From: Verrucomicrobiota bacterium
Lineage (GTDB): Bacteria > Verrucomicrobiota > Verrucomicrobiia > Opitutales > Opitutaceae
DNA: 64,000 nucleotides
Assembly: GCA_026398135.1 (NCBI GenBank)
Contig: JAPLTN010000017.1
Location: forward strand, 1 to 64,000
Reading direction: 5' to 3'
In this document: one piece after another, positions 38,815 to 64,000 of the stretch
Numbering within the stretch: the first letter of the stretch is position 1
Layout: the number at the start of each line of letters is the position of its first letter
The notes under the pieces: generated by a model
Told to the model about the DNA's origin: nothing
The model's database searches: none
Seen by the model: the letters and a program-made list of their open reading frames with translations, nothing else
Program-made: the position numbers and the translations under genes

Positions 38815-38867
38815 GCACAGGGCCGCAATTTAGGGGCAGGTTTATTTCGGTGCCCAAATCCTGACTA

Positions 38868-39993: not shown

Positions 39994-40080
39994 GGTTAGA
40001 CCCAAATCTCTCCTTCCTCCGAAGCCAAGCGAAAGGGTTCTCAAAATCGAGGTTGTTTGGTCGAGGCCGCCATTAAGGAT

Positions 40081-40140
40081 AGGTTAATTTTCGGGGGCAC
40101 ATGACCCGAAGACCGGCCGCCGTGGCGCGTTATCCGGTGT
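40081..40140 (+). repeat. 60-bp direct repeat, left copy
   Basis: Aligned without gaps to 41831-41890, with about 48 of 60 positions identical; the best blocks are GGGCAC-TGACCCGA and GGCGCGTTATCCGGTG. It lies on the vapB45 side of the Fic segment. Confidence 0.7.
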
Positions 40141-40342
40141 GCCAAATGGTCGAAAGTCTCCCACTCCGTTTCAAAACCCCCTCACAGTTGTTTGAGACCT
40201 GCCTGAATCCCCCTGCTGCCTAAAACCCAGGCGAAGACAAAATTTGGCAGCCCCTTACAAACCCCGTCTTGCCCATGACCGCCGGGTGTTTTGGGTTCCT
40301 GGTGAACTACTGAACATGCGTATGCATCGTAGGTGGTGTTTT

Positions 40343-40374
40343 AAGGCGGCCCTCGCGGGCCGCCTTTATTTTTT
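40343..40374 (+). terminator. Strong rho-independent terminator without an upstream gene
   Basis: AAGGCGGCCC (40343-40352) pairs with GGGCCGCCTT (40357-40366) around TCGC, followed by a T-rich tail TTTATTTTTT. No plus-strand reading frame precedes it, and the nearest upstream gene is on the other strand. It may end an unannotated small RNA from 40140-40340. The wider gap 40045-40617 otherwise holds only the direct repeat and the GGACA cluster. Confidence 0.75.
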
Positions 40375-40530
40375 GGGATAGCACACGAAGAGCATGATGG
40401 CACATAGGTTAATGGGTTTGGGGCGATTTTTGATCCCTGCCTTTGGGACTAAAATCGCCCGCCCTCTCGCTCGCGCCTGGAGCACCGCTTGATCCAATAC
40501 ATTGCACCGTGCTTACTCAGGGGCATATGG

Positions 40531-40627
40531 GTGGACATTTTTTTGGACAAAAATGATGCGTATGGCGCGTAACTCGTTGCTTGAAATAAAACAATGTGTG
40601 AGTCTATGTGGACATAAATGCGGACAT
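40531..40627. promoter_or_regulatory. GGACA repeat cluster before the Fic gene
   Basis: Four GGACA copies occur at 40533, 40545, 40610 and 40622, three within GGACAT. The first pair also embeds CATTTTT/AAAAATG as an inverted repeat (40536-40555). The last copy overlaps the Fic start codons, a layout suited to autoregulation by the Fic protein's C-terminal DNA-binding region. Confidence 0.4.
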
Positions 40628-42115: not shown

Positions 42116-42853
42116 TTACCGCCCCGGAATCGCGACGGTGGCGCGGAGGCCGGGTTTCAGGGCGGCGTCGGCGTTGTCCAAAAGGACTTTGACGCGCATC
42201 AGGCCGCTGGCGGCGTCCACGCGGGGGTCCACGAAATCCACCTTGCCGGGGAAAACCCGGGTCGCGTCCGCCACCGGGCAGCGCACTTCCATGGTCTCTC
42301 CCAGGCGGAGCGCCCCGGCATCCTCGGCCCGCACGTAGAATTGCACGTAGAGGCGGGAAATATCCACCAGGCGAAACAAGGGCTGGGAGGCGGCCACGGT
42401 CTCGCCCGCTTCCTGGTGTTTCTCGACCACGATGCCGTCGAGCGGGGCCTTGATGGTGCGCTGGGCCAGCACTTCGGCGGCTTGCTCGTGTTGCAGGCGG
42501 GCGAGGTCGAGCTCGATCTTGGCTTTCAGGGCCTCGTCTTGGGAAATGATGCTGTCGGCCGAGAGGTTCTTGGAGCCTTTGTAGTCGAATTCACGTTTCT
42601 CCAGCGCGGCCTTGGTGCGTTGGGTGTCCAGCTCTTCGATACGGGAATAGAGCTGGGCGAGGGTATCGCCCGCCTTCACGCGGTCGCCCTCTTTGACCGC
42701 GAGGCGTTCGATGCGGGCCTGCACCGGGGCCGAGACCACGACCTCTTTCAAGGGCAGCACCAGGCCGGGGTATTCGATGGCGGCGGCGGAAAGGGCGGCG
42801 GCGCTGGCGGCGAGAACGGCGGCAAGGGCGTGGGGGGAGAGGCGGAGGCGCAT
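42116..42853 (-). CDS. HlyD-family periplasmic adaptor
   Basis: 245 residues from ATG 42853; signal-like MRLRLSPHALAAVLAASAAA. Lipoyl halves at VVVSAPVQARIERLAVKEGDRVKAGD and RTIKAPLDGIVVEKHQEAGETVAASQPLF flank a short coiled hairpin (~85-140). The C-terminal barrel part ends LRATVAIPGR. It is shorter than the 330-400-residue RND adaptors, as the membrane-proximal domain is minimal. It follows the TolC-like gene on the same strand and is presumably its partner. Confidence 0.82.
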   Translation of the reverse strand: MRLRLSPHALAAVLAASAAALSAAAIEYPGLVLPLKEVVVSAPVQARIERLAVKEGDRVKAGDTLAQLYSRIEELDTQRTKAALEKREFDYKGSKNLSADSIISQDEALKAKIELDLARLQHEQAAEVLAQRTIKAPLDGIVVEKHQEAGETVAASQPLFRLVDISRLYVQFYVRAEDAGALRLGETMEVRCPVADATRVFPGKVDFVDPRVDAASGLMRVKVLLDNADAALKPGLRATVAIPGR

Positions 42854-42918
42854 GGAGGGAGCGGGGAGCAGGGAGGCGGGAGCGGAAATGACCAATGACC
42901 AATGACGGGAGGGCTTAG

Positions 42919-43060
42919 TTCTATTTTGTTAACTTGGAAACATTACGGCGGAAATACCTGGAAATGGCCGAAAAAAGGCTCAAAACGCGCAAAACAAAGC
43001 ATTCATTTTTTGCGACTTCTGCGACTTTTTGCGGTCAAATCTCGTTTTAATAAATTAGAA
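42919..43060. repeat. Short intergenic element related to the palindromic repeat family
   Basis: The ends TTCTATTTTGTTAA and, on the opposite strand, TTCTAATTTATTAA resemble the TTCTACTTTGTTAA end of copy 1, and both are preceded by CTTAG. The interior is AT-richer, with tandem GCGACTTCT/GCGACTTTT words, and lacks the TTGGCCGGGGA block. It lies between the TolC stop and the adaptor start. Confidence 0.45.
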
Positions 43061-43074
43061 TCAGGCAGGGTGGC

Positions 43075-44667
43075 TTAGTTGGCGGCGAGGTCGATGCGGA
43101 GGTGGTCGGGGAGGGTGCCGACGACGAAGTGGTATTGGATGATGGCTTTGTTCAGGTCCACCAGGGCGGCGAGTTCGCGGGAGCGGGCGGAGCTGAAATC
43201 GCGCTGAGCCTGGGCGACGTTGTAGCTGGTGGTCATGCCGGAGGCGAGGCGCTTGGTCTCGACTTCGACGGCGTTGCGGGCGAGGCGCACGGTGTCGGCC
43301 ACGAGCAGGTTGCGTTGTTCGGAGTTGGTGATCTCGCGCAGGGCGTTGTCGAAGGCGCTGAGCAGGGTGATCTCGGTGCGCTTGAGGTTAAAGAGGGACT
43401 GGGCTTTGCGGCCGCGGGCTTCGGCGAGGCGGGCTTTGCCGGTGCGGTCGCCGATGGGCACGTTGACCACGATGCCGACGCTGAGGTTGGGTTGGTCTCG
43501 GTTGTCGTAGTCGCGGTAGGCGTCGAAGAAGCCGTTATCCATGCCCATGTAGCCGATGGAGGCCTTGAGGTCCACGCGCGGGTAACGTTGGTTTTGGGCG
43601 TAGGCCACGCGGATGTTTTCGCTCTTGGTGGTGGCGACGGCGGCGAGGTAGGCGGGGTTGCGTTCGAAGAGGACAACGAGGGCGCGGTCGCGGTCGGCGC
43701 CGAAGGGCTGGGCGGCGACGATGCCCGGTTCGACGAGGAAGTCGGCCGAGGAGTCGTCGAAGTTGTCGCGGGTGATCTCGCGCAGGGTGTTGCGGCGGCC
43801 GGCGAGGAAGTTTTGCGAGAGCAGCAGTTCTTCGCGGGCTTCGGCCAGGCGGGCCTGGGCCTGGGTGACGTCGATGGGGGCCATGCGGCCTTCGTCGAAG
43901 CGGCGCTGGTTGTCGCGCACGAGGGCTTCGGCGACGGCGACGGCTTCCTGTTTAACACGGATGTTTTCCTGGCCGAAGGCCATTTCGAGGGCGGCCACGG
44001 TGACATCGCGCAGCACGCGTTGCACGGTGGTTTCGAGCTCGTGGCGGGCGATCTGGGTGGCGGCTTTTTGCAGGCGGACTTCGGCGAGGTTGGCTTTGAA
44101 GCCGAAGTCTTTGAGCAAGGGCTGGGTGATGGTGAGGGTGGTGTTGGAGGTGTATTCCGGGGTGTAGAGCGGATTCGGCGTCATCTGAACGCCGAAGACG
44201 TTGGTGCCGGGGCGGCGGATGGTGGTGTTGTCCGCGCGGTCGGTGCCGGTGAGCAGTTCGTATTGGGTGCCGGTGGGGAGTTTGCCGACCAGGCCGGTCT
44301 GGGTGCGGTTGATGTCTTCCTCGTAGATGCTGGCATAGCGACCGCCGGCCACGGCCTCGGTCATGGAGCTGTTGGAGTAGTTTTGGGCGCGCTCGCTGGT
44401 GATGTAACTGTAGCCGGCGACCCACGACGGATCAAAGGCACCCCAGGCGCCGCTCACGCGGTATTCGCCGATCTGGGGGTCGATGCGCTTGGCCTTGATT
44501 TCAAGATTGGTGTTGAGCGCGGCGATTAGCAGCGCGTGCAGGTCCATGGTCGGAACGGCAGCGGAAGGCTGGGTCTGGGCCGGGCTGGCGTCGGGCGTGG
44601 TTTGGGCCGCGAGAGGGAGCGCGGTGCTGGCGACCAGGGAACACAGGACAAGGCGGGACAGAAACAT
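43075..44667 (-). CDS. TolC-family outer-membrane channel
   Basis: 530 residues with signal peptide (LVLCSLVASTALPLAAQ). The outer membrane efflux protein repeat is present twice, each with a coiled segment (ARHELETTVQRVLRDVTVAALEMA and FNLKRTEITLLSAFDNALREITNSEQ) and strands such as LTITQPLLKDFGF. NIRVAYAQNQRYPRVDLKASIGY is the characteristic link into the second half. It forms the outer-membrane exit duct for type I or tripartite export. It diverges from the GAF-HlyD/M50/SecA-like operon across a 201-bp gap, suggesting shared regulation. Confidence 0.88.
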   Translation of the reverse strand: MFLSRLVLCSLVASTALPLAAQTTPDASPAQTQPSAAVPTMDLHALLIAALNTNLEIKAKRIDPQIGEYRVSGAWGAFDPSWVAGYSYITSERAQNYSNSSMTEAVAGGRYASIYEEDINRTQTGLVGKLPTGTQYELLTGTDRADNTTIRRPGTNVFGVQMTPNPLYTPEYTSNTTLTITQPLLKDFGFKANLAEVRLQKAATQIARHELETTVQRVLRDVTVAALEMAFGQENIRVKQEAVAVAEALVRDNQRRFDEGRMAPIDVTQAQARLAEAREELLLSQNFLAGRRNTLREITRDNFDDSSADFLVEPGIVAAQPFGADRDRALVVLFERNPAYLAAVATTKSENIRVAYAQNQRYPRVDLKASIGYMGMDNGFFDAYRDYDNRDQPNLSVGIVVNVPIGDRTGKARLAEARGRKAQSLFNLKRTEITLLSAFDNALREITNSEQRNLLVADTVRLARNAVEVETKRLASGMTTSYNVAQAQRDFSSARSRELAALVDLNKAIIQYHFVVGTLPDHLRIDLAAN

Positions 44668-44868
44668 AGAAGACAGGGTTTAGGGCGTCGAACGCGGGCG
44701 GGTAGCGGACGCAGTCGGGGCGATCACTGGCAAATACAAAAAACGCGTAACCGGAGTGTCACGAAGCCGGCGGGGAGTTGGCGCAAAAGGCAAAGAAAGG
44801 GTTGAGCACGAAGGGGACGGGCCTCAGTTAAACCGGCTCACCCGTTTTTTTTGCCCCACTCGAATCGT

Positions 44869-46725
44869 ATGCAAGATCTGCTCCCTTCCGGCGTTTCGCT
44901 CTCCGACGCCCTCGCCCGACTCGAAGCCTGCCGCCTGTTCGCGGGTCCGCCGCGCGAGTTCTGGCCGCTGTTTGCGCGGACCTGCGGGCAACTCGCCGAG
45001 GCGGCGGGCGCGCGGGTGTTGTTGCGCACGCCGGGCACGACTGATTGGCGGCTGGTGGCGGGCTGGCCGGATGCGCGCACCTTTCCGGCCGCGATGGGCG
45101 GTCCGGCCTTTGAGGCGCTGGCCGAGCAGGCGCGGCGCGAGGGCATCGCGGCGGCTCCGGGCGCGGCGGGACACGAGTTTAACGCCGGTCTGATCCTGCT
45201 GGCGCTGGCCAGCGGCGGGCGTGAGGGCGAGGTGTGTCTGCTGGCGGCGGCGGTGCAGCCGGGCACGCGCGAGCGGCTGGCGGCGGCGGGCGCGGTGCTG
45301 CGCCTGGCGGCGGATACGCCGCTGCTTTATCAACGCCAGCGGCAGCTCGAACGGGCCAAGCGCGAGGTGGCCGACTACGCGGCGGCGCTGGAAGTGCTGG
45401 CGGCGACCAACGTGCACACGCGTTTCCTGAGCGTGAGCATGGCCTTGGTAAACGAGCTGGCGGCGCGCCACCGCTGCTCCCGCGTGAGCCTCGGCTGGCG
45501 CGATGGCGCGGTCATCCGGGTGAAGGCGGTCAGCGGCACGGACAAATTTGAGCGTCGCATGGAGGTGGTGCAGCGCCTGGAAGCGGCGATGGAGGAGGCG
45601 GCCGAGCAGGACGAAGAGTTGTCCTGGCCGGCCTGGCCGGAGACGGACGCGGTGCTGCGCGACCACGAAGTCTATGCCGCGCGCGAGCTGGTGCCGGCGC
45701 TGCTTTCGGTGCCGGTTCGCGTGGCGGGCGAAGTGCGCGGAGTGCTGACGCTGGAACGCGGCACCGAGGCCGGGTTGTTTACCGAGGCCGATGCGCTCGC
45801 CCTGCGTGTGGTGGCCGATCAGGTGGCGCGCCGGCTGGACGACCTTAACCGCAACGACCGCTGGTTCGGGGCGCGCTGGGCGGCGGAGACGCGCGAGTGG
45901 CTGGGGAATTTCCTCGGGCCCAAACAGACTTGGTTGAAAACGGCCGCGATCGTCGGCGTGGCGGTGGCGGGCTTCAGCCTGCTGGTGCCGTTGCCGTATC
46001 GGGTAAATGCGAACTTCATCGTGCGGGCGGACGAGCTGCTGCACTTGCCGGCGCCCTACGAAGGCTACCTGGGGTCGGTTTCGGTCCGTCCGGGCGACTT
46101 GGTGCGCAAGGGCGACTTGCTGCTCAAGCTCGACACCAGTGATCTGCTGGTGGAGCGGGCGGCGGCGGCGGCCGAGCGCCAGCGTTTCGCCAGCGAGGCG
46201 GAAAAAGCCGAGGCGGACAAAAAGCTGGCCGATCTGCGGGCCGCGCGCGCGGCCCTGGCGCAGGCGCAGGCGCGGCTTGATCTGGTGGATTATCGTCTCG
46301 GCCGGGCCGAGATGCGCGCGCCTTTCGATGGCGTGGTGGTCGAGGGCGATTTGCGCGAGCGCATCGGCGCGCCGGTTAAAATCGGCGACGTGCTCATGAA
46401 GGTTTCCAAGCTGGAGGGCCTCTACGTGGAGATGCGTGTGCCGGAGCGCGACGTGGATCTGATCGCGGGCAGCCGCAGCGCCGAGGTGGCCTTTACCACC
46501 CGGCCCGAGGATACGTTCGGCGTGGCGGTGGAGCGCATCGAGCCTGCCGCGCAAGTGGAGCGCGAGGGCAGCGTGTTCGTGGTCACGGGCAAGCTGGACC
46601 GGAGCGCGGACTGGCTGCGGCCGGGCATGAGCGGCGTGGCCAAGGTGGAGAGCCAGCGCCGCACCCTGGCGTGGATCGCGACCCACCGGCTGGTCGATTT
46701 CCTGCGTCTGAAACTGTGGTGGTGA
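44869..46725 (+). CDS. GAF-domain/HlyD membrane-fusion hybrid
   Basis: 618 residues from ATG 44869. Residues ~1-330 hold one or two GAF-like folds (second around LVNELAARHRCSRVSLGW ... LLSVPVRVAGEVRGVLTLER), which should be cytoplasmic. One membrane helix (TAAIVGVAVAGFSLLVPLPY, ~360-380) leads to an HlyD adaptor: LPAPYEGYLGSVSVRPGDLVRKGD, coiled hairpin ~430-480, MRAPFDGVVVEGDLRERIGAPV, and a barrel to the C-terminus. A GAF sensor fused to an adaptor suggests gating of export by a ligand (inference). First gene of an operon with the M50 and SecA-like genes; 66 bp precede the M50 gene. Confidence 0.8.
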   Translation: MQDLLPSGVSLSDALARLEACRLFAGPPREFWPLFARTCGQLAEAAGARVLLRTPGTTDWRLVAGWPDARTFPAAMGGPAFEALAEQARREGIAAAPGAAGHEFNAGLILLALASGGREGEVCLLAAAVQPGTRERLAAAGAVLRLAADTPLLYQRQRQLERAKREVADYAAALEVLAATNVHTRFLSVSMALVNELAARHRCSRVSLGWRDGAVIRVKAVSGTDKFERRMEVVQRLEAAMEEAAEQDEELSWPAWPETDAVLRDHEVYAARELVPALLSVPVRVAGEVRGVLTLERGTEAGLFTEADALALRVVADQVARRLDDLNRNDRWFGARWAAETREWLGNFLGPKQTWLKTAAIVGVAVAGFSLLVPLPYRVNANFIVRADELLHLPAPYEGYLGSVSVRPGDLVRKGDLLLKLDTSDLLVERAAAAAERQRFASEAEKAEADKKLADLRAARAALAQAQARLDLVDYRLGRAEMRAPFDGVVVEGDLRERIGAPVKIGDVLMKVSKLEGLYVEMRVPERDVDLIAGSRSAEVAFTTRPEDTFGVAVERIEPAAQVEREGSVFVVTGKLDRSADWLRPGMSGVAKVESQRRTLAWIATHRLVDFLRLKLWW

Positions 46726-46791
46726 GCGGCGTGTTAATCACGTTTCCCCACCTGTTTTTCCCTCAGCCCTTTTGTTTTTCGGTTTTTCCCC

Positions 46792-48969
46792 ATGAGTGAT
46801 GCCCAACGCGCCATCTTTTCGGAATCCTGGCACCGTGTCGCCGGGCAGCGCCTGAAGCTGCGGCCCTCCGTGGCCATACACCGGCAGACCTACCGGGGCG
46901 AGCGCTGGCATGTGGCGCAGGACGGGTTCACCAACGCGTTTTTTCGCTTCCGTTCCGAGGCCTACGATTTCATCGCCCGGCTGGATGGCACCCGCACGGT
47001 GGAGGAGATCTGGCTGGGCTGCGTGCAACGCACCCCCGAGACCGCGCCCGGCCAGGGCGAGGTGGTGGCTTTGCTGGCCCAGCTTTATCAGGCGAACCTG
47101 CTGATGAGCGACACCTCGGCGGATACCGCGCGTCTGTTTGCCCGCCATGAAAAACGCCGCAAACAGGAGATGGCCGCGCAGCTTTTCGGTATCTTTTTCC
47201 TGCGTATCCGATTACTTGATCCCGACCGCTGGCTGAGCAAGGTCTGGCCCTCGATCAGCTGGCTGGCCACGCGCGGGGCGGTGGCGGCCTGGGGCGTTCT
47301 GCTGCTCGCGGGTTTGACCACGGTGGCCGGCCAGTGGAGCCGGGCGATAGACCAATCCCAGGCGGTGCTGGCGCCGGGCAACCTGCTTCTGCTCTACGCG
47401 GCCTTTACCATGGCCAAGCTCATCCACGAGTTTGGCCACGCCTTCGCGGTCAAGGCCTTCGGCGGCGAGGTGCACGCGATGGGCGTGACCCTGCTGGTTT
47501 TTACCCCGGTGCCCTACGTGGACGCGACGGCGGCGTGGGCTTTTCCCGAGCGTTGGAAACGCGTGGTGGTGGGCGCGGCGGGCATGATCCCCGAGCTGGC
47601 CTACGCCTCGCTGGCCGCTTTCGTCTGGGCGTGGACCGCGCCGGGCACGCTCAACAGCCTCGCCTACAACACCATGGTCGTCGCCTCGCTTTCCACCCTG
47701 GTGTTCAACTTGAATCCGCTGCTGCGTTTCGACGGCTACTATATTTTGTCGGATTTAACCGATACGCCCAATTTGCAGGCGCGTTCCTCGCGTCAGTGGC
47801 TGCACCTGTGGGAGCGCCACGCTTTGAAAGTGAACACGCTGGAAAGTCCGGCGCGCACCCCCGCGGAGGCCACCGGGCTGACGGTGTTTGGCGTGGCGAG
47901 CTACGTGTACCGCATGGTGGTGACGGTTTCCATCATCCTGTTCGTGGCGGACCAATACTTCGGTCTCGGTCTGCTGGCGGCGGCGCTGACCATGGCGGGG
48001 GCGTTTATCCTGCCGGCGGTGAAGGCGTTTAAATATCTGGGCAACGAGCCGCGTATCGAGCGCAGCCGCAAACGCGCCTGGGCGCTGGCGGGCGGCGGCG
48101 CGGCGGTGGTGCTCGGGTTTCTGGCCTTGGTGCCGATGCCGTATCACTTCCGGGCGCCGGGCGTGGTGCGGGCGGCGGGCTCGGCGGATGTTTACGCGCC
48201 GGTGTCGGGTTGGGTGAGGGATTTGAAGACGCCGAGCGACAGCACGGTGACCGAGGCGCAGGAATTGGTGCGGCTGGAAAGTCCCGAGCTTGTGCTGCAA
48301 CTGGCGGCGGCGCGGGCGGAGCTGGCCCAGGTGGAGGCGCGCGAGCGTCAGATGCTGTCCGCTCTGGCGGCGGGCATCGAGCCGATGCGGCTGCGTCGCG
48401 AGGCGGCGGAGACGGCGGTGCGGCGTCTGGAGACGGACCAGACCGCGCTGGCGCTGGGCGCGCCGGCGGCGGGGCGCTGGGTGGCGCTGCGCACCGAGGA
48501 CTGGGCGGGCATGCACGTGGCGCGCGGCACCCGGCTGGGCGAGATCGTGGGGCCTGGGCCGGAGTGGGAGTTTTTCGCGGTGGTCGGGCAGGAGGATGCC
48601 AGCGCCTTGTTCGGCGCGGCCAAGGAAGGCGCGGAGGTGCGTTTCCCGGGTTCGTCGGGTCGCGATGCGGCGGTGACGGAGTGGCGGGTGGTGCCGGGCC
48701 GTCAGGAGCAGTTGCCCAGTCCGGCGCTGGGCTGGCAGGCGCAGGGCCCGGTGCGCACCCGTGAGGACGATTCGCGCGGATTGCGCGCGGACCAGCCGTT
48801 TTTCCTCGTGGTCGGGCGGGTGTCGGCCGCCGACGTGGACGCGGGCGAGGGCCCCTTGCTCTGGCAGGGGCGGGTGGGGGCGATGCGTTTCGCCCGGCCA
48901 TGGACGCCGCTGCTGGTGCAGTGGGCGCGCGATTTCCGCCAGCTCTTGCAGACCCGTTACCAGCTGTGA
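46792..48969 (+). CDS. PqqD-like/M50 metalloprotease/HlyD membrane protein
   Basis: 725 residues. Residues ~35-95 (FTNAFFRFRSEAYDFIARLDGTRTVEEIW) resemble the PqqD-type peptide-recognition fold. Then multiple helices carry an M50 site-2-protease core: IHEFGHAFAV (zinc His212, Glu213, His216) and LNPLLRFDGYY with the third ligand Asp. After ~435 a membrane helix and HlyD-like lipoyl halves follow (RAAGSADVYAPVSGWVRDL). Such putative peptide zinc metalloproteases accompany exporters of peptides or large proteins. It could clip or guide the substrate at the inner membrane (inference). 50 bp upstream of the SecA-like gene. Confidence 0.83.
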   Translation: MSDAQRAIFSESWHRVAGQRLKLRPSVAIHRQTYRGERWHVAQDGFTNAFFRFRSEAYDFIARLDGTRTVEEIWLGCVQRTPETAPGQGEVVALLAQLYQANLLMSDTSADTARLFARHEKRRKQEMAAQLFGIFFLRIRLLDPDRWLSKVWPSISWLATRGAVAAWGVLLLAGLTTVAGQWSRAIDQSQAVLAPGNLLLLYAAFTMAKLIHEFGHAFAVKAFGGEVHAMGVTLLVFTPVPYVDATAAWAFPERWKRVVVGAAGMIPELAYASLAAFVWAWTAPGTLNSLAYNTMVVASLSTLVFNLNPLLRFDGYYILSDLTDTPNLQARSSRQWLHLWERHALKVNTLESPARTPAEATGLTVFGVASYVYRMVVTVSIILFVADQYFGLGLLAAALTMAGAFILPAVKAFKYLGNEPRIERSRKRAWALAGGGAAVVLGFLALVPMPYHFRAPGVVRAAGSADVYAPVSGWVRDLKTPSDSTVTEAQELVRLESPELVLQLAAARAELAQVEARERQMLSALAAGIEPMRLRREAAETAVRRLETDQTALALGAPAAGRWVALRTEDWAGMHVARGTRLGEIVGPGPEWEFFAVVGQEDASALFGAAKEGAEVRFPGSSGRDAAVTEWRVVPGRQEQLPSPALGWQAQGPVRTREDDSRGLRADQPFFLVVGRVSAADVDAGEGPLLWQGRVGAMRFARPWTPLLVQWARDFRQLLQTRYQL

Positions 48970-49019
48970 GGCGCGAGTGCGTTTCAGACTATTTATAATC
49001 GCTTAAAACTCACCCGATC

Positions 49020-51035: not shown

Positions 51036-51111
51036 GTTTGTGCGTGCGCGTGAGGCCGAAACGAGCCGAGTCGAACCGAGGCTGGGTTTGCCCAAGCGCG
51101 TTTTTTGTCCC

Positions 51112-55140: not shown

Positions 55141-55249
55141 GTCGTGTCCGGTTAATTGTTAAAATTTCTCGGAAAGGGCTTGCCGACAATGGGGTGAAGT
55201 ATGCATCACAGCACCCTATTTTGTTTCCGTTACCTGATTTTTTGTCCCC

Positions 55250-58200
55250 TTGAGCCGAGGCCTACCCTCACGATCCGTCACCAGTTCCGCCTTCGTTTTG
55301 GAGGCATTGGAGGGCCGTCTGTTGCTCTCGGCCACCGCGTTGGACCAGACCTTGTTGGCACCGGCAACCGGAGCTTTGGTTGCTAACTCCACGGTAGAGC
55401 TCGCTTCGGTCGGCCATGCCGCGGCGGTAGCCGTCCCGGTGGTGAATGATTCGGACAGCCTTTTTGCCGATCTTCCCGAAGTGGCCCCACCGGTTGTCGA
55501 ATCGACCGCCCCTGCGGTCGAGCTCAGCGCGGTCGAAGCCCCGGTTGTCGTGGCCACTGCTCCTGCGCCGGGCGTCCAAAATCCTGCGGATTCGCCGGTT
55601 TCCCCTTTGCCCACGGGCACGGTGCCCGAACGCTTGATCATCACCTCCAACCCCTCCCAAGGGCCTCCGGTTAAGCGGATTCTCACTCCCGACACCCTAA
55701 ATTCAGATCTTCTCACCGTTGAGGCACAACAGCGCCTGAACGGTGTGGGTGTTTACGACCTCTCCTTGGTCAACCACGGCACTTTCGCCCCGGGTAATTC
55801 CCCCGGCACGACCAGCGTTACCGGCACCTTCACCAACGCCTCCGACGCCACCTTGGAGATCGAACTGGGCGGAACAACCGCCGGTTCCCAATACGACCAA
55901 GTCGTCGCCACCGGCACCGCCACCTTAAGCGGCACCCTCAAGGTTTTTCTCTACGACGGCTTCGCCCCCACCGTCGGTCAGACCTTCACCATCCTCACCT
56001 CCGCCGGAATCACCGGCGACTTCGCCGACTTCGCCGGCCTCAACATCGGCAACGATCTTTACCTCCGCCCCTCCATCGTCGGTAACAACTACGTCCTGAC
56101 CGTTGTCGCCGGTCCTGCCCGCCCCTTGGTCTTCGTTCCCGGCTTCGGCGGCTCCTTCCCCACCGCCGCCGCCTTCGGCGAATGGCTCACCACCCGCGGC
56201 CTTGCTCCTGATAAGCTCACCCTCGAACCGATCGAGAACACCTACGGCAGCATTATCAAAACGCTCGAAAACGTCGGCTACGTTATCGGCCAAAACCTCT
56301 TCATCGCCAACTGGGACTGGCGTCTGGCCGTAGCGCCAAAAGATGGCGCCAACGACGGAGTCGTCACCCTCACCGGTTCCAACGGCGGGGCGGTTGCCTT
56401 GGCCGACACCACCTTCGCCACCGGCATAGACTACCTCGGTTATGCGATGAAACAGGCGGTCGAGACCTGGGCCACCAACCACAGTGGAGCCGCCCCCGCC
56501 GAAGTGGACATGCTTACGCATAGCACCGGCGGCCTGGTCGCCCGTGCATATATCCAGAGCACCGCCTACAACCAGACCTACACCACCTCCGGCACCTCCT
56601 ACGACCTGCCCGAAGTTAAAAACCTCATGCAAATCGGCGTCCCCTCCCAGGGCGTCGTTCAGGCTTACAACTTCCTCGCCGACAACTTCGGCCTCTCCTC
56701 CGCCTCCCGCCTCGCCGGCCTCGTCGCCAACCTCGCCTTCGACGCCGTCAAATCCGGCTCCACCATCACCGGCCCCGATGGCAACATCACCCTCGCTTCC
56801 ATCCAAACCGCCGGCCAGCCCGACGCCGCCAAATTCCTCCGCGCCTACTTCCCTTCCCTGATCGATTTGACCGGCACCTTCGACTTCCTCGATACCAACT
56901 CCACCAACGCCGTCAGTTATGTGGACGTTAACTCATCGCCCACCACCTCCCTCCTCCTCGATCTCAACGATGGCCTCGGCTTGGACGGCGCCACGGGCAT
57001 CGACGCCAACACCTTCATCGACCGTCTCACCGGCGAGCTCTCTATTATATATAGTAGCGATCTGTCCTCCCCCTCATCCCTGCAAGCGTACACGGGCGGC
57101 GTCGGCTCCATCGTCGGCATGGCATCCCCCACCGGTCGCCTGCCCGGTGCCTCCGAAATCTGGTATCAACAAGAATTCACCGCCACCGGCGACGGCACCG
57201 TGCTCGCCACCTCCGCCTGGGGCCAGTTCGACACCGAAGCCAACGCCGGACGTATCGCCAAGCTCAACGAAGTCGAAATCACCGGCGGCACCGCCTCCAC
57301 CTCCGGCCACAGCGCCCTCACCTTCAACACCACCGCGCTCACCCACGTCCTCACCCAGCTCGGCTTCACCAGCTTCACCTCCGTTCTCGATACCAACGAG
57401 GCCCACGGCACCGCCCGGCAAGCCGAAGCCCTCCTCCATTACGCAGTCGGGTTCTTACTCGCCGACGTACGTACTCTAGAGGACGCCTACGATCTCTTCA
57501 CCACCAGCCTCGACGCCATCGACGGCATCATCAACGCCGTCTCCTCCGCCGATTACACCGCCGGTTTTGATCTGCCCACCGCCGCCTTCACCCTGCCCAA
57601 CGTCACCTTGGACAACGTGCTCTTCCTCGGCACGCCGGTCATCGCGCTGAGTGCCGGCACCTTGGCCAACCCCCGCTACCAGTCCGGCACCCTCGACGCC
57701 AAGATCACCTTCGCCGTTGGCTCCGCCTCGCTCTTCCCCGGCGGCACTGTGTTCAGCTCTGTCAGCGACGGTTCCGACGGTGACGCCAACGGCCTCGTGG
57801 GCACCTACAACTTCGCCACCGGCCTGTTCGCGTTCACCCTGGATCAATTCATTCTCAATGTCGGCTCAGCCTTCGGCCTCAGCGCCACGGCCGTCACCGC
57901 CGCCCTTAATCCAGCCAGCTCCGCCGAAAACGCCTTCTCCTTCAGCGTCACCGGCGGACGCTTCACCCTCGGCGCCGGCATGATCGCCCAAGGCGACTTC
58001 TCCTTCTACAAGGGTAACGACTCCCTCGTTCACGCCGCCGCCTCCTCGGTTGCGGCTTTCGTTGGCACAGGTTTTGGCACCGGCACCCCGGTCGGCCTTT
58101 CCATCGCGACCGGTCTTTTTGGCCTCCAGCTCAACCCCTCCACTTCTAAATACGCCCTCGCCGTCCAGGGCGCCGTCTCCACCTCCGGCCTCTCCTCGCT

Positions 58201-61200
58201 TGGTCTCAGCTTAAGCGGCACCTTCAACCTCCTCGTCTCCAATTACGCCACCGACCAGACCTTCACCGTTGGCGTCGGCGGCTCCGCCACCTCCGTCACC
58301 GTCGGGGCCAACTCCCTCTACCTGCGCGGCTCGGCCACCCTCAACCTCGGCTCCGGTTCTGCCTATGTCTCCGGCATCTTCGACTTTGCCCAAGACACTT
58401 CGCTCATCACCGCCTCCGCCGCCTCCGTCACCGCCTTCTTTGGCAACGGCTACGCCACCCCCGCCGCCACCGGCCTGAGCCTCACTTCCGGTAAAATCGC
58501 CTACCGCATTAACTCCGCCACTCTCGACTACGCCCTCGGCGTCGAAGGCACCGCCGCCATCATCGGCATCGCCGGGCTCAGCGTCACGGGCACCTTCCGC
58601 CTCCTCTCCTCCACCTTCGACACCGACCAGCTCCTCAGCTCAACCCTCGGCGGCACCACCTACTCCTTCAACGCCCCCGCCGACACCCTCTTCGTTACCG
58701 GCTCGGTTGACCTCAACATTTCCGGTTTCGCCGTCCTGCGCGGTGCCTTCACCTTCAATCGCACCGCCACCACCATCACCGCCGCCGGCACCGACCTCAC
58801 CGTCTTTATGGGCACCGGTTTCGGCACCGGCTCCGCCACCGGCCTGCAAATTACCGGCGGCCTCTTCGCCCTCCGTCTCGACCTCCCCACCGGCAAATTC
58901 GTCGCCGGCGCCAGCGGCTCTGCCTCCTTGGTTGGCGTGCCCAACGTCACCTTCTCCGCCACCGGCTTTACCTTCATCGCCAACCAATTCGACACCGACC
59001 AGGCCCTCGTAGTCGGCGTCCCGGGAAACACCGTCAACCTCACCGCCACCGCGCTCTCTTATTATATGAGCGGCACCGCCGCCCTCGCCCTTGACGGTGC
59101 GGTCTTCGTCTCCGCCGACTTCACTTTCGCCAGCGCCCCCGCCGTCGTCGATTGGGTCCAGGGCCTCATCGCCGCCGACACCTCCGTGGTCGAACTCGTA
59201 CCCGCCTCCGCCGGCCAGCCCGAAGAACAACTGCTCACCCTCACCGCCGCCGCCCTCGCCTACGGCACCTTCACCCTCACCTACGACGGACAGACCACCG
59301 TCGCCCTCGCCCTCGCCCTCAACGATACCGCCACCATGGCCGTCGCCATTCAGACCGCCCTGCGCAACCTCTCCAATCTCGCCGACAACGAAGTCACCGT
59401 CACCTACGCCGGCAAACCCGCCAGCAACGACTACGCTTTCCGCATCCGTTTCGCCGGGGCCTTGGCCGCTACGAATGTTAACCAGATTACCGTAGCCGTC
59501 TCCACCTCCGGCACCCTCCAGTCCCAAGTCTGGGACGTTGCCCTCGGCTCCGCCACCGGCACCTTCTCTTTCACCCTCGGCTCCGCCTCCACTTCTCTCA
59601 CCCTCGTCGGCACCGAAAACGCCGCCACCGTCGAGGCCGCGCTCAAGGCCGCTCTGGGCACCCTTTCGCCGCTCACCCCAGCCGCCCTCACGGTCGCATC
59701 CCAAGGCTCCGGCACTTACCGCGTCACCGTCGGCGGCGACCTAGCCGGCCAGGCCATCGGCACCCTCGCCGTCTCCACCTCCCTCCCCGCCGCCACTACC
59801 TCCGTTGTCCGCACCACACCCGGCTCCACCGCCCAAAACGAAGTCGTCGCCCTTTACCTCAACGACCCCTCCGGCACCGCCGCCGGAACCTATACCTTGT
59901 CTTACAACGGCCAGACCAGCGGCACCCTCCGCTTCGCCGACAGCATGGTCGATATGAACCGCCAGCGGATTGAGGACGCCCTCGAAGCCTTCACCGGCAT
60001 CGGCCCGAATAACGTCACGGTTACCTTCGACTCCGCCTCCACCATCCGCCGTCAGCGCTACGTCATCACCTTCAAGGGCGCGCTCGCCGGTCAAAACGTC
60101 TCGGCCCTCACCGCCAACGACACCCTTTTCCGTGGCGGTTCGGTCGAGCTCGTCACCGTCACCCAAGGCTCCGCCGCCGCCAGCGAGACCCAGACCGTCT
60201 CCATCACCTCCGCTGTTGCCGCCACTTTCACCCTCAGCCTTACCCGCTCCGGCACCACCTACACCACTTCCGCCCTCTCCACTTCCGCGAACGCCGCCGC
60301 TGTCCAGGCCGCCCTTAACACCGCCCTCGGCTCGGCGGGAACCACCACCGTCACTTCTAGCTCCGTCGGCATCTGGATCGTCGGCTTCGGCGGCGCGCTC
60401 ACCGGCACTTCCCCCCCACTTCTCGTCATCACCCCGACCCTCACCGCCGCCAACGCCTCCGTATCCATCATCACCACCGGCGGCACCCAGTCCGCTTCCG
60501 GTTCGGCCTTCACCGCCGCCACCTCCACTTCTCTTTCCGGCAACACCGCCGGCGGCTCCATTCAAGAGGTCACCGTTACCGCCGATGTCGCGGGCGGCAC
60601 CATGACCCTGAGCCTCACCCACAGCGGCTTCACTTATACCACCGCCGCGATCTCGACCGCCGCCACCGCCGCCGTCGTTCAATCCGCGCTCGCCACCGCC
60701 CTCTCCGGCCTCGCCGGAGCCACCGCGACCGTCACCTCCGCCAGCACGGGCGTCTATCGCGTCGCTTTCGGCGGCACCCTCGCCGGCGTCTCGGTCGCCC
60801 TGCTTGAAGTCAGCGCCACCTTGCCCGCCCCCCCTGCCGCGCAAACCGAGATCCTCATCGCCGCCACCAACGTCACCGCCCTCGTCGGCAACGGCTACCA
60901 AACCGTCACGGTCGTCGCCTCGGCCGCCGACACCTTCACGCTTTCTTTTGTTTACGGCGGCACCACCTACACCACCGCCGCGATCGCCACCGGCGCCACC
61001 GCGACCACGGTCCAAACCGCCCTCACCACTTCCCTCGGAGTCCTATCCGGCGCAACCGTAGCCGTCACTTCCCCCTCCGCCGGAGTCTATCGTGTTTATC
61101 TCGGCGGCGTGCTTGCCGCCACCACCGCGCCGCTGATCACCGCCACTCCCGCCCTCGGCACCACCACGATCACGGTAACCGCCGCCACCTCCGGCGTCAG

Positions 61201-64000
61201 CCTCACCGGCGGCACCCTTGCACTCGTTCTTTATCCCGACACCGATAAATACGCCTTCGCCGCGCGCGGCACCGCCACCGTCACCGGACTGGCGGGCGTC
61301 AACCTCAGCGGCACCGTAACCGTCATCACCGGCAATCTTGCCACTGACACCACCTTGGAAATCTCCACTCCCGGCGGCACCGTGGTCGCCGATATTGCCG
61401 CCGGAGTTACCCAGGTTTACGGCAACCTGACCTTTGACTTCGGCGGTTTCGTCGCCGGCTCGGGAAATTTCACCTTCACGCACTCCGCCGATCTGCTCAC
61501 CGTTGAGGCCGATAGCGTCACCGCCTTTGTGGGTACCGCCTTCGGCACCCCCGGCGAAACCGGCATCAAGGTCACCGCCGCCGCCCTCGCGCTAAAGCTC
61601 GACCTGGCATCCGGTCTCTACGCCTTCGCCGCTCGCGGCACCGGCAGCCTGGTCGGAATAGGCTCCGTAACCCTCACCGGCACCCTTGCAGTCGAGTCCT
61701 CCACTTACGCCACCTCCACTTCTCTCACCGTCGGCGGCACCACCCTTACCCTTGCCTCCGCCACCAGTCGCGTTACCGGCACCGCACTCACCTTTGACTT
61801 CGCCGGCTTCGTCGCCGGCTCGGGCGATTTCGTCGCCACCAAGACCGTCGCTCAACTTGACTTCGCCGCCTCCAACCTAACCGCGTTCGTGGGCAACGGC
61901 TACGGCACCGCATCACCCGCCGGTCTGCGCCTCACCTCTGCCGACCTCGGCCTGCGCGTCTTCCTCTCCACTTCCCGTTACGCCCTCGCCGCTCGCGGCA
62001 CCGGCGAACTCCAGGGCATCACCGGCCTCACCCTCGCCGGTTCGCTCACCGTGCTCACCGGCACCTCGCTCACCGACCAAATCCTCACCTTCGCTGGTTC
62101 GCCCACCACCGTAACTGCAGGCACCAGCGCCGTCTCAGGCACCGGCATTACCCTCTCCGTCGGCACCTCGCTCCTGCTCGCGGGCGACTTCGCCTTCACC
62201 AAATCCGCCACCGAGCTCAACCTCGCCGCCACCGGCATCACCGCCTTCGCCGGTCAGCATTACAACAACTCCGGCGGCACCGAGACCGGCGTCAAAGTCA
62301 CCGCCGCCGTCCTCGCCCTCCGCGTCGATCTCACCACCGGTCGCTACGCCCTCGGCGCGCGCGGCACCGCCGCCATCGTCGGCATCACCGACTTCGCCCT
62401 CAGCGGCAACCTCACCGTCATCGCCTCCACTTATACTACCGACCTTGCCTTCACCGTCCCCGTCGGCGGCACCGACCTCACCCTCACCGCCGTCGCCAAC
62501 TCCCTCGCCTTCACCGGCAACCTTACCCTCACCGTCGCCGACTTCGTCGCCCTCAGCGGCAACCTCACTTTCTATAAAGACGACACCCAGCTCATCCTCG
62601 CCGCCACCTCCGTCACCGCCTTCGTCGGCACCGGCTCCACCGGCCTCACCGTTAGCAACGGCCTGATCGCCCTCCTCTACGATTTCACCTCTGGCGACTA
62701 CGCGCTCGGGGCCTCCGGCACCGCCGCCCTCACCGGTGTGTCCGGCCTCACACTCACCGGCACCCTTGAAGTCGTGGTCACCACCTTCGCCACCAATGTG
62801 GAACTCGAAGTCGGCGTCGGCGACGACATCGTCGCCCTCACCGCCACCGCCGGCGTCACCACCGTGCGCGGCTCCGCCACGGTTAACCTCGCCGGGTTCG
62901 TCGCCATCGAAGGTACCTTTGCCGTCACCAAGACCGCCACCACCCTCGCCGTAACCGCCACCTCCGTTACCTCTTTCCTCGGCACCGGCTTCGGTGCCTC
63001 CGCCGCCGTCGGCGCTTCCCTCACCGTCGGCAACCTCGGCCTCCTCCTCTCCACTTCCGGGCTGACCACCGGCCAATACGCCCTCGCCGCCACCGGCACC
63101 GCCGCCCTCGTCGGCGTCCCCGGCCTCGCCCTCACGGGTAACATCGACGTCCGCCGCAGCACCTTCGCCACTTCTCAAAACGTCACCCTCAACTCCGTCT
63201 CCACCGCTGTCGCCGCTAACGCCCGCACCTTTGAAGGCACCGGCCTCACCCTGGCTATCGCCAGTCAGGTCTCCCTCTCCGGAAATCTCGCCTTCGACCT
63301 CTCCACCTCCGACGTCGTTGTCCTGGGCACTTCCCTCACCGCCAGCCTCACCCTGGGCACCTTCTCCGCTGGCTTCTCCTCCGGCACCCTCGCCCTGCTC
63401 GTCCGCGGCAACGGTACTTTTGCCGTCTCCGCCACCGCCTCCACCCTCAGTCTCTCCGGCGCGGGCTTCGCCTCGGCCACCGCAACCGCAGTCACTTTTG
63501 CCTACAACAACACCGGCATCGACCTCGTCGCCGCCCCGCGCGTGCTTACCATCGGCTCGGCCGGCGCTTCGCTCGACTCCGCCCTCGGCACCACCGCCTC
63601 CCCCTACATTGCCCTCGCCGCCACCGGCGTCTCGGTGCAACTCGCCGGCCTCGTCACCGCCACCGGCAATTTCACTTTCAGCCGCGCCACCACTGCCGAC
63701 GGCGATGCCGTCGTCCGCATCGCCGTGGCCAACTTCGGTGCCACCCTCGGCACCGCGTCCACCACTTTCCTTACCCTCAGCAACGGCTCCGGCGCACTGC
63801 TCGTCTCCACCGCCGCCGGCGTCACCTCCACCGCCGCCACCCTCACTGTCAGCGCCGCCCTCGCCAATGTCCCCGGCGTCACCCTCGGCGCATCCACCTT
63901 CACCCTTGAGTTCAATACCGGCACCGCCGCCGTGAACGAAACCTTCACCGTCGGCGCTTCCACCGTAGCCCTCGACCTCCCCGGCGGCGTGTTTGTCCGC
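55250..64000 (+). CDS. Giant repetitive surface protein with LEPR-XLL-like N-terminus and lipase-like domain (partial)
   Basis: Open for more than 2,900 codons and unfinished at the window edge. The only start between the upstream stop (55235) and the conserved N-terminus is TTG 55250. Residues 15-28 read FVLEALEGRLLLSA, close to the LEPR-XLL motif of very large bacterial surface proteins. A Pro/Val/Ala-rich spacer and a passenger-like beta segment follow. Residues ~290-700 form an alpha/beta hydrolase: PLVFVPGFGG, nucleophile elbow THSTGG (Ser425), GDGTV (Asp648) and SGHSALTF (His687), as in LCAT-like lipases. Beyond ~860 it is made of two kinds of Gly/Thr/Ala-rich repeats of roughly 100-120 residues. 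Probably exported by the upstream system. Confidence 0.85.
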   Translation, partial: MSRGLPSRSVTSSAFVLEALEGRLLLSATALDQTLLAPATGALVANSTVELASVGHAAAVAVPVVNDSDSLFADLPEVAPPVVESTAPAVELSAVEAPVVVATAPAPGVQNPADSPVSPLPTGTVPERLIITSNPSQGPPVKRILTPDTLNSDLLTVEAQQRLNGVGVYDLSLVNHGTFAPGNSPGTTSVTGTFTNASDATLEIELGGTTAGSQYDQVVATGTATLSGTLKVFLYDGFAPTVGQTFTILTSAGITGDFADFAGLNIGNDLYLRPSIVGNNYVLTVVAGPARPLVFVPGFGGSFPTAAAFGEWLTTRGLAPDKLTLEPIENTYGSIIKTLENVGYVIGQNLFIANWDWRLAVAPKDGANDGVVTLTGSNGGAVALADTTFATGIDYLGYAMKQAVETWATNHSGAAPAEVDMLTHSTGGLVARAYIQSTAYNQTYTTSGTSYDLPEVKNLMQIGVPSQGVVQAYNFLADNFGLSSASRLAGLVANLAFDAVKSGSTITGPDGNITLASIQTAGQPDAAKFLRAYFPSLIDLTGTFDFLDTNSTNAVSYVDVNSSPTTSLLLDLNDGLGLDGATGIDANTFIDRLTGELSIIYSSDLSSPSSLQAYTGGVGSIVGMASPTGRLPGASEIWYQQEFTATGDGTVLATSAWGQFDTEANAGRIAKLNEVEITGGTASTSGHSALTFNTTALTHVLTQLGFTSFTSVLDTNEAHGTARQAEALLHYAVGFLLADVRTLEDAYDLFTTSLDAIDGIINAVSSADYTAGFDLPTAAFTLPNVTLDNVLFLGTPVIALSAGTLANPRYQSGTLDAKITFAVGSASLFPGGTVFSSVSDGSDGDANGLVGTYNFATGLFAFTLDQFILNVGSAFGLSATAVTAALNPASSAENAFSFSVTGGRFTLGAGMIAQGDFSFYKGNDSLVHAAASSVAAFVGTGFGTGTPVGLSIATGLFGLQLNPSTSKYALAVQGAVSTSGLSSLGLSLSGTFNLLVSNYATDQTFTVGVGGSATSVTVGANSLYLRGSATLNLGSGSAYVSGIFDFAQDTSLITASAASVTAFFGNGYATPAATGLSLTSGKIAYRINSATLDYALGVEGTAAIIGIAGLSVTGTFRLLSSTFDTDQLLSSTLGGTTYSFNAPADTLFVTGSVDLNISGFAVLRGAFTFNRTATTITAAGTDLTVFMGTGFGTGSATGLQITGGLFALRLDLPTGKFVAGASGSASLVGVPNVTFSATGFTFIANQFDTDQALVVGVPGNTVNLTATALSYYMSGTAALALDGAVFVSADFTFASAPAVVDWVQGLIAADTSVVELVPASAGQPEEQLLTLTAAALAYGTFTLTYDGQTTVALALALNDTATMAVAIQTALRNLSNLADNEVTVTYAGKPASNDYAFRIRFAGALAATNVNQITVAVSTSGTLQSQVWDVALGSATGTFSFTLGSASTSLTLVGTENAATVEAALKAALGTLSPLTPAALTVASQGSGTYRVTVGGDLAGQAIGTLAVSTSLPAATTSVVRTTPGSTAQNEVVALYLNDPSGTAAGTYTLSYNGQTSGTLRFADSMVDMNRQRIEDALEAFTGIGPNNVTVTFDSASTIRRQRYVITFKGALAGQNVSALTANDTLFRGGSVELVTVTQGSAAASETQTVSITSAVAATFTLSLTRSGTTYTTSALSTSANAAAVQAALNTALGSAGTTTVTSSSVGIWIVGFGGALTGTSPPLLVITPTLTAANASVSIITTGGTQSASGSAFTAATSTSLSGNTAGGSIQEVTVTADVAGGTMTLSLTHSGFTYTTAAISTAATAAVVQSALATALSGLAGATATVTSASTGVYRVAFGGTLAGVSVALLEVSATLPAPPAAQTEILIAATNVTALVGNGYQTVTVVASAADTFTLSFVYGGTTYTTAAIATGATATTVQTALTTSLGVLSGATVAVTSPSAGVYRVYLGGVLAATTAPLITATPALGTTTITVTAATSGVSLTGGTLALVLYPDTDKYAFAARGTATVTGLAGVNLSGTVTVITGNLATDTTLEISTPGGTVVADIAAGVTQVYGNLTFDFGGFVAGSGNFTFTHSADLLTVEADSVTAFVGTAFGTPGETGIKVTAAALALKLDLASGLYAFAARGTGSLVGIGSVTLTGTLAVESSTYATSTSLTVGGTTLTLASATSRVTGTALTFDFAGFVAGSGDFVATKTVAQLDFAASNLTAFVGNGYGTASPAGLRLTSADLGLRVFLSTSRYALAARGTGELQGITGLTLAGSLTVLTGTSLTDQILTFAGSPTTVTAGTSAVSGTGITLSVGTSLLLAGDFAFTKSATELNLAATGITAFAGQHYNNSGGTETGVKVTAAVLALRVDLTTGRYALGARGTAAIVGITDFALSGNLTVIASTYTTDLAFTVPVGGTDLTLTAVANSLAFTGNLTLTVADFVALSGNLTFYKDDTQLILAATSVTAFVGTGSTGLTVSNGLIALLYDFTSGDYALGASGTAALTGVSGLTLTGTLEVVVTTFATNVELEVGVGDDIVALTATAGVTTVRGSATVNLAGFVAIEGTFAVTKTATTLAVTATSVTSFLGTGFGASAAVGASLTVGNLGLLLSTSGLTTGQYALAATGTAALVGVPGLALTGNIDVRRSTFATSQNVTLNSVSTAVAANARTFEGTGLTLAIASQVSLSGNLAFDLSTSDVVVLGTSLTASLTLGTFSAGFSSGTLALLVRGNGTFAVSATASTLSLSGAGFASATATAVTFAYNNTGIDLVAAPRVLTIGSAGASLDSALGTTASPYIALAATGVSVQLAGLVTATGNFTFSRATTADGDAVVRIAVANFGATLGTASTTFLTLSNGSGALLVSTAAGVTSTAATLTVSAALANVPGVTLGASTFTLEFNTGTAAVNETFTVGASTVALDLPGGVFVR
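57840..63170 (+). repeat. Protein-coding tandem repeat family A of the giant gene
   Basis: Units of about 115-125 codons share an AFVGTGFGTG-like start, a TGLxxxxGLxALxLD strand, KYALAxxGTA and a FDFAGFVAGSGDF-type strand. Starts lie near 58050, 58430, 58800, 61525, 61875, 62230, 62620 and 62965, interrupted by family B. DNA identity is moderate, so these are old, diverged duplications. Confidence 0.7.
59210..61150 (+). repeat. Protein-coding tandem repeat family B of the giant gene
   Basis: About six units of ~95-110 codons contain LTLTxxGxTYTTAAIxT, AAAVQxALNTALG, and VTSxSxGVYRVxFGGxLAG. They end near 59500, 59790, 60150, 60440, 60810 and 61130. They form a block inserted between family A units. 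Confidence 0.65.

Follow-up and report, generated by a model that had tools for sequence, protein, structure and literature searches.

How might a cell with two membranes release proteins of many thousands of residues, and how would it tell them apart from the rest? The question is raised by a gene cluster in a 64,000-nucleotide stretch of DNA, here called the window, from a Verrucomicrobiota bacterium of the family Opitutaceae (assembly GCA_026398135.1, contig JAPLTN010000017.1, positions 1 to 64,000 of the forward strand). Between positions 42116 and 64000, the genes for a periplasmic adaptor of the HlyD/MFP family (42116–42895, minus strand; Pfam HlyD_D23 1.1e-29, NCBIfam RND_mfp 8.9e-46) and a TolC-family outer membrane channel (43075–44667, minus strand; Pfam OEP 8.9e-40) face a plus-strand series encoding a GAF-HlyD protein, an M50-HlyD membrane protein, a SecA-like ATPase and two large proteins. 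All of these genes are present in the order given in the initial annotation of the window, which had proposed that they form a dedicated exporter for giant proteins of the LEPR-XLL type. We consider it probable that the five genes other than those for the large proteins encode a dedicated tripartite exporter, which moves giants carrying an N-terminal LExR-type tag out through TolC. Export itself, the binding and clipping of the tag, any motor role and the identity of the part that makes the inner-membrane pore are all inferred from anatomy and co-occurrence.

The candidate substrate is the second large protein. Its frame starts with TTG at 55250 on the plus strand and is open at the window end (55250–64000); in the genome it runs for 4607 codons without a stop up to the contig end. 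The tag, FVLEALEGRLLLSATALDQTLL, occupies residues 15–36 (55292–55357) and matches the LEPR-8K model NF012209 with 18.7 bits on its own and 23.7 bits in a genome search, both above the cut-off of 17, which confirms the LEPR-XLL-like start noticed earlier. The same genome encodes a second tagged giant on contig C67, with the tag VLEPLEGRVLLSG (20.4 bits).

Related clusters were collected by a protein search of genome contigs, which gave six named loci in Verrucomicrobiota and eight in Pseudomonadota, 14 in all. The M50 and SecA-like genes adjoin in all 14, and 11 have the full set of five (the TolC of L017 and L020 by Pfam only), so that the grouping goes beyond chance. Contig ends interrupt the other three, L012 ahead of TolC and the adaptor, and L015 and L016 ahead of the GAF-HlyD gene. 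A LEPR-XLL match over the cut-off is present in 12 of the 14 genomes, in five of them in frames of 14,158 to 18,730 codons. As for the remaining two, G010, whose locus lies on a 7.5-kb contig, has no match, and G002 has one of 15.9 bits with the tag LESRLLLSV.

The tags fall into two consensus lines. Near SecA-like loci the consensus is [LVI]ExLExRxLLS[AG] (the LLS class), and near a second, lower-scoring class of M50 loci it is LExRxxFDGAA (the FDGA or D class). Sorting N-termini by pattern gave 65 distinct LLS-class and 51 distinct D-class sequences, a few of which, such as those of L086 and L087, are probably chance matches; the pattern demands ExR, while the preceding L and the following residues still yield two clear lines. 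By pattern, seven of 124 loci lack the motif (L071, L281, L088, L084, L265, L085 and L271). On reading, L071 (LEPRILYSA) and L281 (LEPRVLYDGAA) carry real tags, that of L088 is in a short frame, and L084 and L265 have no credible tag. In nearly all cases read, the distance between the first possible start and the tag is from 4 to about 100 residues. LExLExRxLLA-like starts also occur in planctomycete proteins.

The distribution of tags and exporters was compared in 288 Verrucomicrobiota and 398 Pseudomonadota genomes, with Planctomycetota, Nitrospirota and Chlorobiota outside the sample. M50 matches were sorted by profile score into a HIGH class (about 370 bits or more, or contig-end fragments of that class) and a LOW class (about 200 to 350 bits). 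Among the Verrucomicrobiota, LEPR-XLL matches over the cut-off occur in 18 of the 19 genomes with a HIGH M50, which span eight families, compared with six of the 269 others. All 18 tags read as LLS class (LLNA in G107). One of the six other matches, in G231, is a 7111-codon frame with the tag LEPRILYSA that adjoins a SecA-like gene; the frames of the other five have 138 to 636 codons. At the same threshold, no match arose in any of 14 control genomes.

In Pseudomonadota, raw NF012209 matches were found in 35 of 39 HIGH genomes, 17 of 51 LOW-only genomes and two of 308 genomes with no M50 match, one of the latter (G579) being a 64-codon frame. On reading, 31 of the 39 HIGH genomes have an LLS-class tag and one is ambiguous (G571, LLDG), the count having dropped because three HIGH genomes had D-type matches only. 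Variants of the LLS tag are LFAAD in G349, LLNSD in G443 and LLFSAT in G486. All 17 LOW-only matches are of D type ([FLY]D[GA]A, LDAS or FDAT, with one extra LFAGDG in G449), G469 being included here even though a fragment at a contig end (172 bits over 211 positions) could belong to the HIGH class. A tagged open reading frame lies within the fetched 20-kb stretch at nine of 19 Verrucomicrobiota and five of 37 Pseudomonadota HIGH loci; several tagged frames start outside it, since a giant itself can exceed 40 kb.

The genome-wide check called for in the initial annotation thus came out in its favour in both phyla: tag and module co-occur, and matches are few among genomes without a HIGH M50 (6/269, Verrucomicrobiota) or without any M50 match (2/308, Pseudomonadota). 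The idea of an exporter dedicated to LEPR-XLL proteins gains from co-occurrence in the two sampled phyla and within one family, often with direct adjacency, while the export step is deduced from these patterns.

The LOW class of M50 loci proved to have a tag of its own. With a profile built from ten FDGA tags, matches were obtained in 22 of 41 LOW Verrucomicrobiota genomes (18 of 37 without the four training genomes; one of the 22, G084, was not borne out on reading), in one of the 247 others (G078) and in none of the 19 HIGH genomes. In Pseudomonadota, where the matches were read in part (20 loci and some others) and the remainder counted by E-value alone, the tag is found in 64 of 77 genomes with a LOW-class M50 and in none of 82 without (58 of 71 when the six training genomes are omitted). 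This breaks down into 40 of 51 LOW-only genomes, 24 of 39 HIGH genomes and none of 70 without an M50 match, the last being controls taken from the 308; G591, with LOW fragments only, was left out. LLS tags track HIGH modules and FDGA tags track LOW modules, which lack the SecA-like gene; the tag class therefore matches the exporter class.

An indirect association, in which both gene sets happen to be found in the same lineages or islands without any functional link, could produce part of this pattern, given the kinship among the genomes and the apparent lateral movement of the locus noted in an earlier description (PMC4452313). It is, in our estimation, extremely improbable. Within the window's own family, the tag is present in eight of eight genomes with the module and in none of 17 without, and a single genus (g1) contains two genomes with tag and module alongside two that lack both. 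Moreover, the FDGA tag splits by exporter class even among HIGH Pseudomonadota genomes. A LOW-class M50 profile, applied at 500 bits or more, is present in 26 of the 39, absent in 12 and fragmentary in G591, and the FDGA tag occurs in 24 of the 26 with it and in none of the 12 without it.

What, then, would read the tag? The best candidate is the M50-HlyD protein (46792–48969, plus strand), whose architecture was derived from the daptide_HExxH match, an orthologue alignment and a structural model with a Foldseek search. Its Pfam M50 score of 23.0 is below the gathering threshold of 27.2. The zinc-binding motif HEFGH (residues 212–216, 47425–47439; H212, E213 and H216) and the segment NPLLRFDGYY (residues 308–317, 47713–47742; N308, P309, R312, F313, D314 and G315), presumed to be the region of the third zinc ligand, correspond to HExxH and NPxxRFDG motifs that are invariant in 11 of 11 orthologues. 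The combination of HExxH and a distal D in the membrane domain that marks M50 site-2 proteases is therefore present here, and it is invariant in 12 of 12 LOW-class proteins as well. The C-terminal third resembles the MexA, MacA and AcrA adaptors in the predicted model (best E 6e-11). No pore geometry was derived from the full-length model, the quality of which is middling (pLDDT 72.3, pTM 0.44).

Residues 20–107 or so (46849–47112) form a separate N-terminal domain. Predicted alone (model m5aa6be23d666, pLDDT 85.4), it has an RRE-like fold with a winged helix, a three-stranded sheet and three helices. The best Foldseek rows are PqqD (5sxy) and two lasso-peptide RREs with leader peptide (6jx3 and 5v1u), at E-values of 0.055 to 0.07, none under 0.001, and probabilities of 0.98–0.99. 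A second aligner gave Z scores of 7.9, 7.8 and 7.4 for the PqqD/RRE rows, with an rmsd of 2.5–3.3 over 82–87 residues. Other winged-helix proteins, such as GdmN, reach Z scores up to 9.4, and the RRE match should therefore be taken as a match to a common fold. The PqqD-like peptide-binding fold suggested in the initial annotation accordingly stands as a predicted fold and is weak by sequence: PF05402 gave an E-value of 0.012 and 16.3 bits, below its cut-off of 23.4, and a sequence-profile search of the PDB with this region gave no match. Recognition of a peptide, here the tag, by such a domain is plausible from the model. Since the domain precedes the first hydrophobic segment, it is probably on the cytoplasmic side, which would fit reading of the tag before export. 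In three genomes (loci L165, L166 and L167), the RRE part is a separate 143-residue frame that overlaps the M50-HlyD frame.

The same features call to mind the maturation of ribosomally synthesized and post-translationally modified peptides (RiPPs). The M50 protein matches the NCBIfam daptide protease equivalog daptide_HExxH (NF041824) over residues 22–407 with 175.7 bits (1.5e-51), short of the cut-off of 300, and together with the RRE-like predicted fold this might mean that the M50 cuts small precursor peptides for export, the giants being mere frequent neighbours. We regard this as very improbable, as tagged frames reach 20,466 codons, giants with a tag are also found far from the module, and the class of the tag tracks that of the exporter. 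RiPP pathways with an RRE and an M50 (daptides; PqqD and lasso B1) share the arrangement of an RRE-like predicted fold before an M50 domain, whereas here the two are fused to an HlyD adaptor and are accompanied by tagged proteins that are thousands of residues long.

The SecA-like ATPase has 671 residues (49020–51035, plus strand; Pfam SecA_DEAD 3.1e-85, SecA_PP_bind and P-loop_SecA). Aligned with the genome's own SecA of 1004 residues, the only full-length SecA there, it consists of NBD1-PPXD-NBD2 and then ends after the first scaffold helix, a truncation that presumably removes the wing domain and the two-helix finger. Its profile match extends over residues 14–604 of chain 3jv2, which has 783 residues. 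The protein retains Walker A, the DEAD-like box, PPXD and NBD2, and Pfam finds no SecA_SW in it. Walker A (EMATGEGKT, 49395–49421) and GRGTD are invariant in 12 of 12 aligned sequences. Four SecA2 models gave 366.6 to 495.2 bits, all below their cut-offs. The gene is present at 53 of 56 HIGH loci (18 of 19 in Verrucomicrobiota and 35 of 37 in Pseudomonadota), a count that includes partial frames at contig ends, two broken genes (L172 and L177) and three that are degenerate. Among 80 genomes sampled, the gene was found in 20 of 22 HIGH genomes and in none of 11 without an M50, and also in G231 and G203, whose M50 scores LOW.

The current picture of how the parts would work together is as follows. 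The RRE-like domain would bind the tag in the cytoplasm; it is a natural candidate for a receptor because the membrane protein to which it belongs has this domain on its cytoplasmic side and a TolC adaptor at the opposite end. The M50-HlyD protein, the GAF-HlyD protein (44851–46725, plus strand; Pfam GAF 1.8e-7 and HlyD_D23 3.6e-17, with one hydrophobic segment at residues 360–378 between the two by hydropathy) and the separate adaptor would form the inner-membrane and periplasmic conduit, with TolC as the exit. In most systems of the LLS class, the short SecA-like ATPase may help to load the chain or to push it, and the M50 may clip the tag.

Several observations weigh against this scheme. 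In the 80-genome sample, the gene is found in none of the 45 LOW-only genomes, the sister class, and two HIGH genomes, G486 and G632, carry LLS-type tags without it. At three loci, L169 (G315), L179 (G303) and L180 (G311), all four ATPase motifs sought are lost while the gene stays in the cluster. G315 has further modules, and a second short SecA-like protein was seen in neither G303 nor G311; LLS-type tags are present in G311, and none were seen in G303. Because such degenerate sole copies exist, ATP hydrolysis by this protein would not be needed in every member, and because of the tags of G486 and G632 and the sole, motif-less copy of G311, a motor role is doubtful. What remains of the 'Sec-type motor' in the initial annotation is a SecA ATPase core that ends early and has no SecA_SW; the motor role itself finds no support. 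Nor is there any for the suggestion that this SecA paralogue recognizes the tag, given that it is absent from the sister class, G486 and G632 and has lost its ATPase motifs in G303 and G311. Among the genes of the cluster and the module loci, no dedicated inner-membrane channel gene was seen. On the side of the tags, eight of the 39 HIGH Pseudomonadota lack a clear LLS tag (none in G303, G335, G382 and G465, D-type only in G421, G425 and G441, and the ambiguous one in G571), G512 has an LEPRVLLYG protein of 2514 residues without any M50 match, and G100, whose SecA-like gene is unlinked from its HIGH M50 locus, has no tag. Of the genomes with a LOW-class M50, 19 of the 41 from Verrucomicrobiota and 13 of the 77 from Pseudomonadota yielded no FDGA tag. 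In all of these counts, the line between HIGH and LOW was drawn after the scores were seen, and the genomes are in many cases drafts and are not independent of one another, although the P values computed for the associations treat them as if they were.

Some of these points would be expected if the giants crossed the inner membrane by the housekeeping SecA-SecYEG pathway and the module acted in the periplasm only, the tag then being a processing or sorting mark for the RRE-like domain and the M50. The SecA-like gene is dispensed with in the sister class and in G486 and G632, and nearly all of these have a full-length SecA: a frame of at least 887 residues was found in G486, G632 and 43 of the 45 LOW-only genomes, and no SecA match of any kind was obtained in the other two. 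The lack of a visible inner-membrane channel gene points the same way. Pointing the other way is the hydropathy of the tagged N-termini, which peaks at 2.0 or more in just two of 63 of the LLS class. This speaks only weakly against a Sec signal, because few of the signal-peptide-like starts in this cluster reach 2.0 themselves: the same measure is 1.35 for the window's NHL protein, described below, and 1.54 to 2.1 for its orthologues, with 2.04 for TolC and 2.25 for the adaptor. The probable cytoplasmic position of the RRE-like domain, which would suit reading of the tag ahead of export, also argues against a purely periplasmic module. On balance we find the housekeeping route unlikely, though it is the most serious competitor of the dedicated exporter.

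If a dedicated exporter does carry the giants, what powers it in the class without a SecA-like gene? Clustering of 38 LOW-class loci revealed no conserved ATPase that could serve as a power source. The M50, GAF-HlyD and adaptor genes recur, and one further family is found in 15 of the 38, three members of which, run against Pfam, are OEP/TolC proteins. A broader form of the exporter reading, for which we see an even chance, is that these loci represent a distinct mode of secretion across two membranes, in which RRE-M50-HlyD reads an LExR leader as RiPP enzymes do and, with no ABC transporter, sends whole proteins as long as about 20,000 residues out by way of TolC. It would come in two orthogonal classes, often both in one cell: LLS with a SecA-like protein without the two-helix finger, and FDGA without a SecA-like protein.

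The giants have several other features. In the window giant, the stretch at about 56234–56671, before the repeats, resembles a lipase/PGAP1-like alpha/beta hydrolase, with weak Pfam matches to LCAT (0.00036) and PGAP1 (0.00098) and THSTGG at 56516. On contig C67 (1–24921, covered by L367 and L201), a frame open from the contig start reaches almost to the second tagged giant, which shares 54% identity with the second giant of G154; contigs C58 and C67 may flank a gap within a single gene of more than 12,000 codons. Tandem tagged giants are seen in the Verrucomicrobiota G154, G105, G032, G029, G171 and G200, where the first frame has 13,828 to 20,466 codons and no more than about 100 bases separate its estimated end from the tag that follows. 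The C-terminal ends read by eye differ and share no motif, so that a signal there common to all giants seems unlikely; the window giant has no end in the data. The proteobacterial giants of L017 (1–7140), L019 (2–7141) and L020 (2–7141) share a C-terminal segment resembling RPVxQxAxxLxDDxxDxPLIAAE, with weaker versions in L013, L014 and L018, and FDGA-class substrates (L242, L240, L355, L356, L361 and L363) often have, by eye, an end of the [FL][ST]xQL type. At L209 (G113), a LOW-class M50 locus without a SecA-like gene, two neighbours start with LEALEQRQLLAGG and IEALETRTLLAGA, perhaps a third tag class.

The first of the two large proteins is an NHL beta-propeller protein (51112–55140, plus strand; Pfam NHL 1e-67) with, by eye, a signal-peptide-like start. 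It sits between the SecA-like gene and the giant in all six verrucomicrobial named loci and is perhaps an accessory part of the system. No ABC transporter was found by Pfam in eight queries spanning the seven genes of 42116–64000 or in ten further open reading frames of the window, an unlinked ABC gene not having been sought. Ordinary multidrug efflux was rejected as the function of the cluster, there being no RND, ABC or MFS pump among its seven genes, although part of it may have a small-molecule role; the nearest MFS gene (24037–25254) is 17 kb away. Upstream, at 34484–41826, are genes for a DNA methylase, a ResIII-type helicase, a Fic protein and an HTH/DUF433 protein, perhaps a restriction island.

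How does this system compare with known ones? The type I secretion system (HlyB-HlyD-TolC) employs an ABC transporter and recognizes a C-terminal signal in its substrate. The TolC channel, HlyD adaptors and very large cargo are common to both, whereas in the present system no ABC transporter was found nearby, the shared tag is N-terminal, and there are added M50 and RRE-like parts. Accessory Sec systems (SecA2, SecA2-SecY2) similarly use a second SecA-type ATPase for selected substrates, whereas the SecA-like protein here ends after the first scaffold helix, sits with TolC and HlyD and misses the SecA2 cut-offs.

The exporter gene set as such has been known since 2015, when Kamneva, Poudel and Ward described a secondary SecA_DEAD, type I-related locus, including its gene set, its lost SecA_SW and its wide distribution (PMC4452313). 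The set also occurs in Planctomycetes, and the laboratory strain Methylobacterium extorquens AM1 has an operon of GAF, M50, SecA_DEAD and HlyD genes (MexAM1_META1p2402 to 2399; PMC4452313). Kamneva and colleagues proposed a type I-like exporter in which SecA_DEAD may take the place of the ABC ATPase and the pore may be made by M50, and regarded its broader biological role as completely unknown, with no substrate in the text available to us (PMC4452313). The present cluster belongs to that group: a SecA_DEAD protein without SecA_SW lies beside M50/HlyD, GAF/HlyD, HlyD and sometimes OEP, in overlapping phyla. It differs in that the accessible parts of that account contain no substrate, tag or SecA-less sister class, and giant, LEPR and adhesin do not appear in its main text (PMC4452313). 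The locus was later mentioned in passing (PMC5313232, as far as its available text goes). LEPR-XLL is likewise touched on in the portions seen of PMC10868602, for a Vibrio protein of about 8000 residues, and PMC9611531. Among open-licence papers, consulted in part, no published link between the LEPR-XLL tag and this module was found, and a report elsewhere is possible. As far as the searches show, what is new is the LEPR-XLL giants as candidate substrate, the second tag class and the matching of tag and exporter.

A candidate substrate class with a short tag makes the role of the locus described in 2015 testable. If the reading is correct, it would explain how the largest proteins of many bacteria in two phyla are exported, and it would add to protein secretion an N-terminal address code read by an RRE. 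The classes with and without a SecA-like gene would amount to a natural experiment on what powers export, and proteins now labelled as LEPR-XLL only, or starting with LExRxxFDGA, would become the predicted cargo of a defined route.
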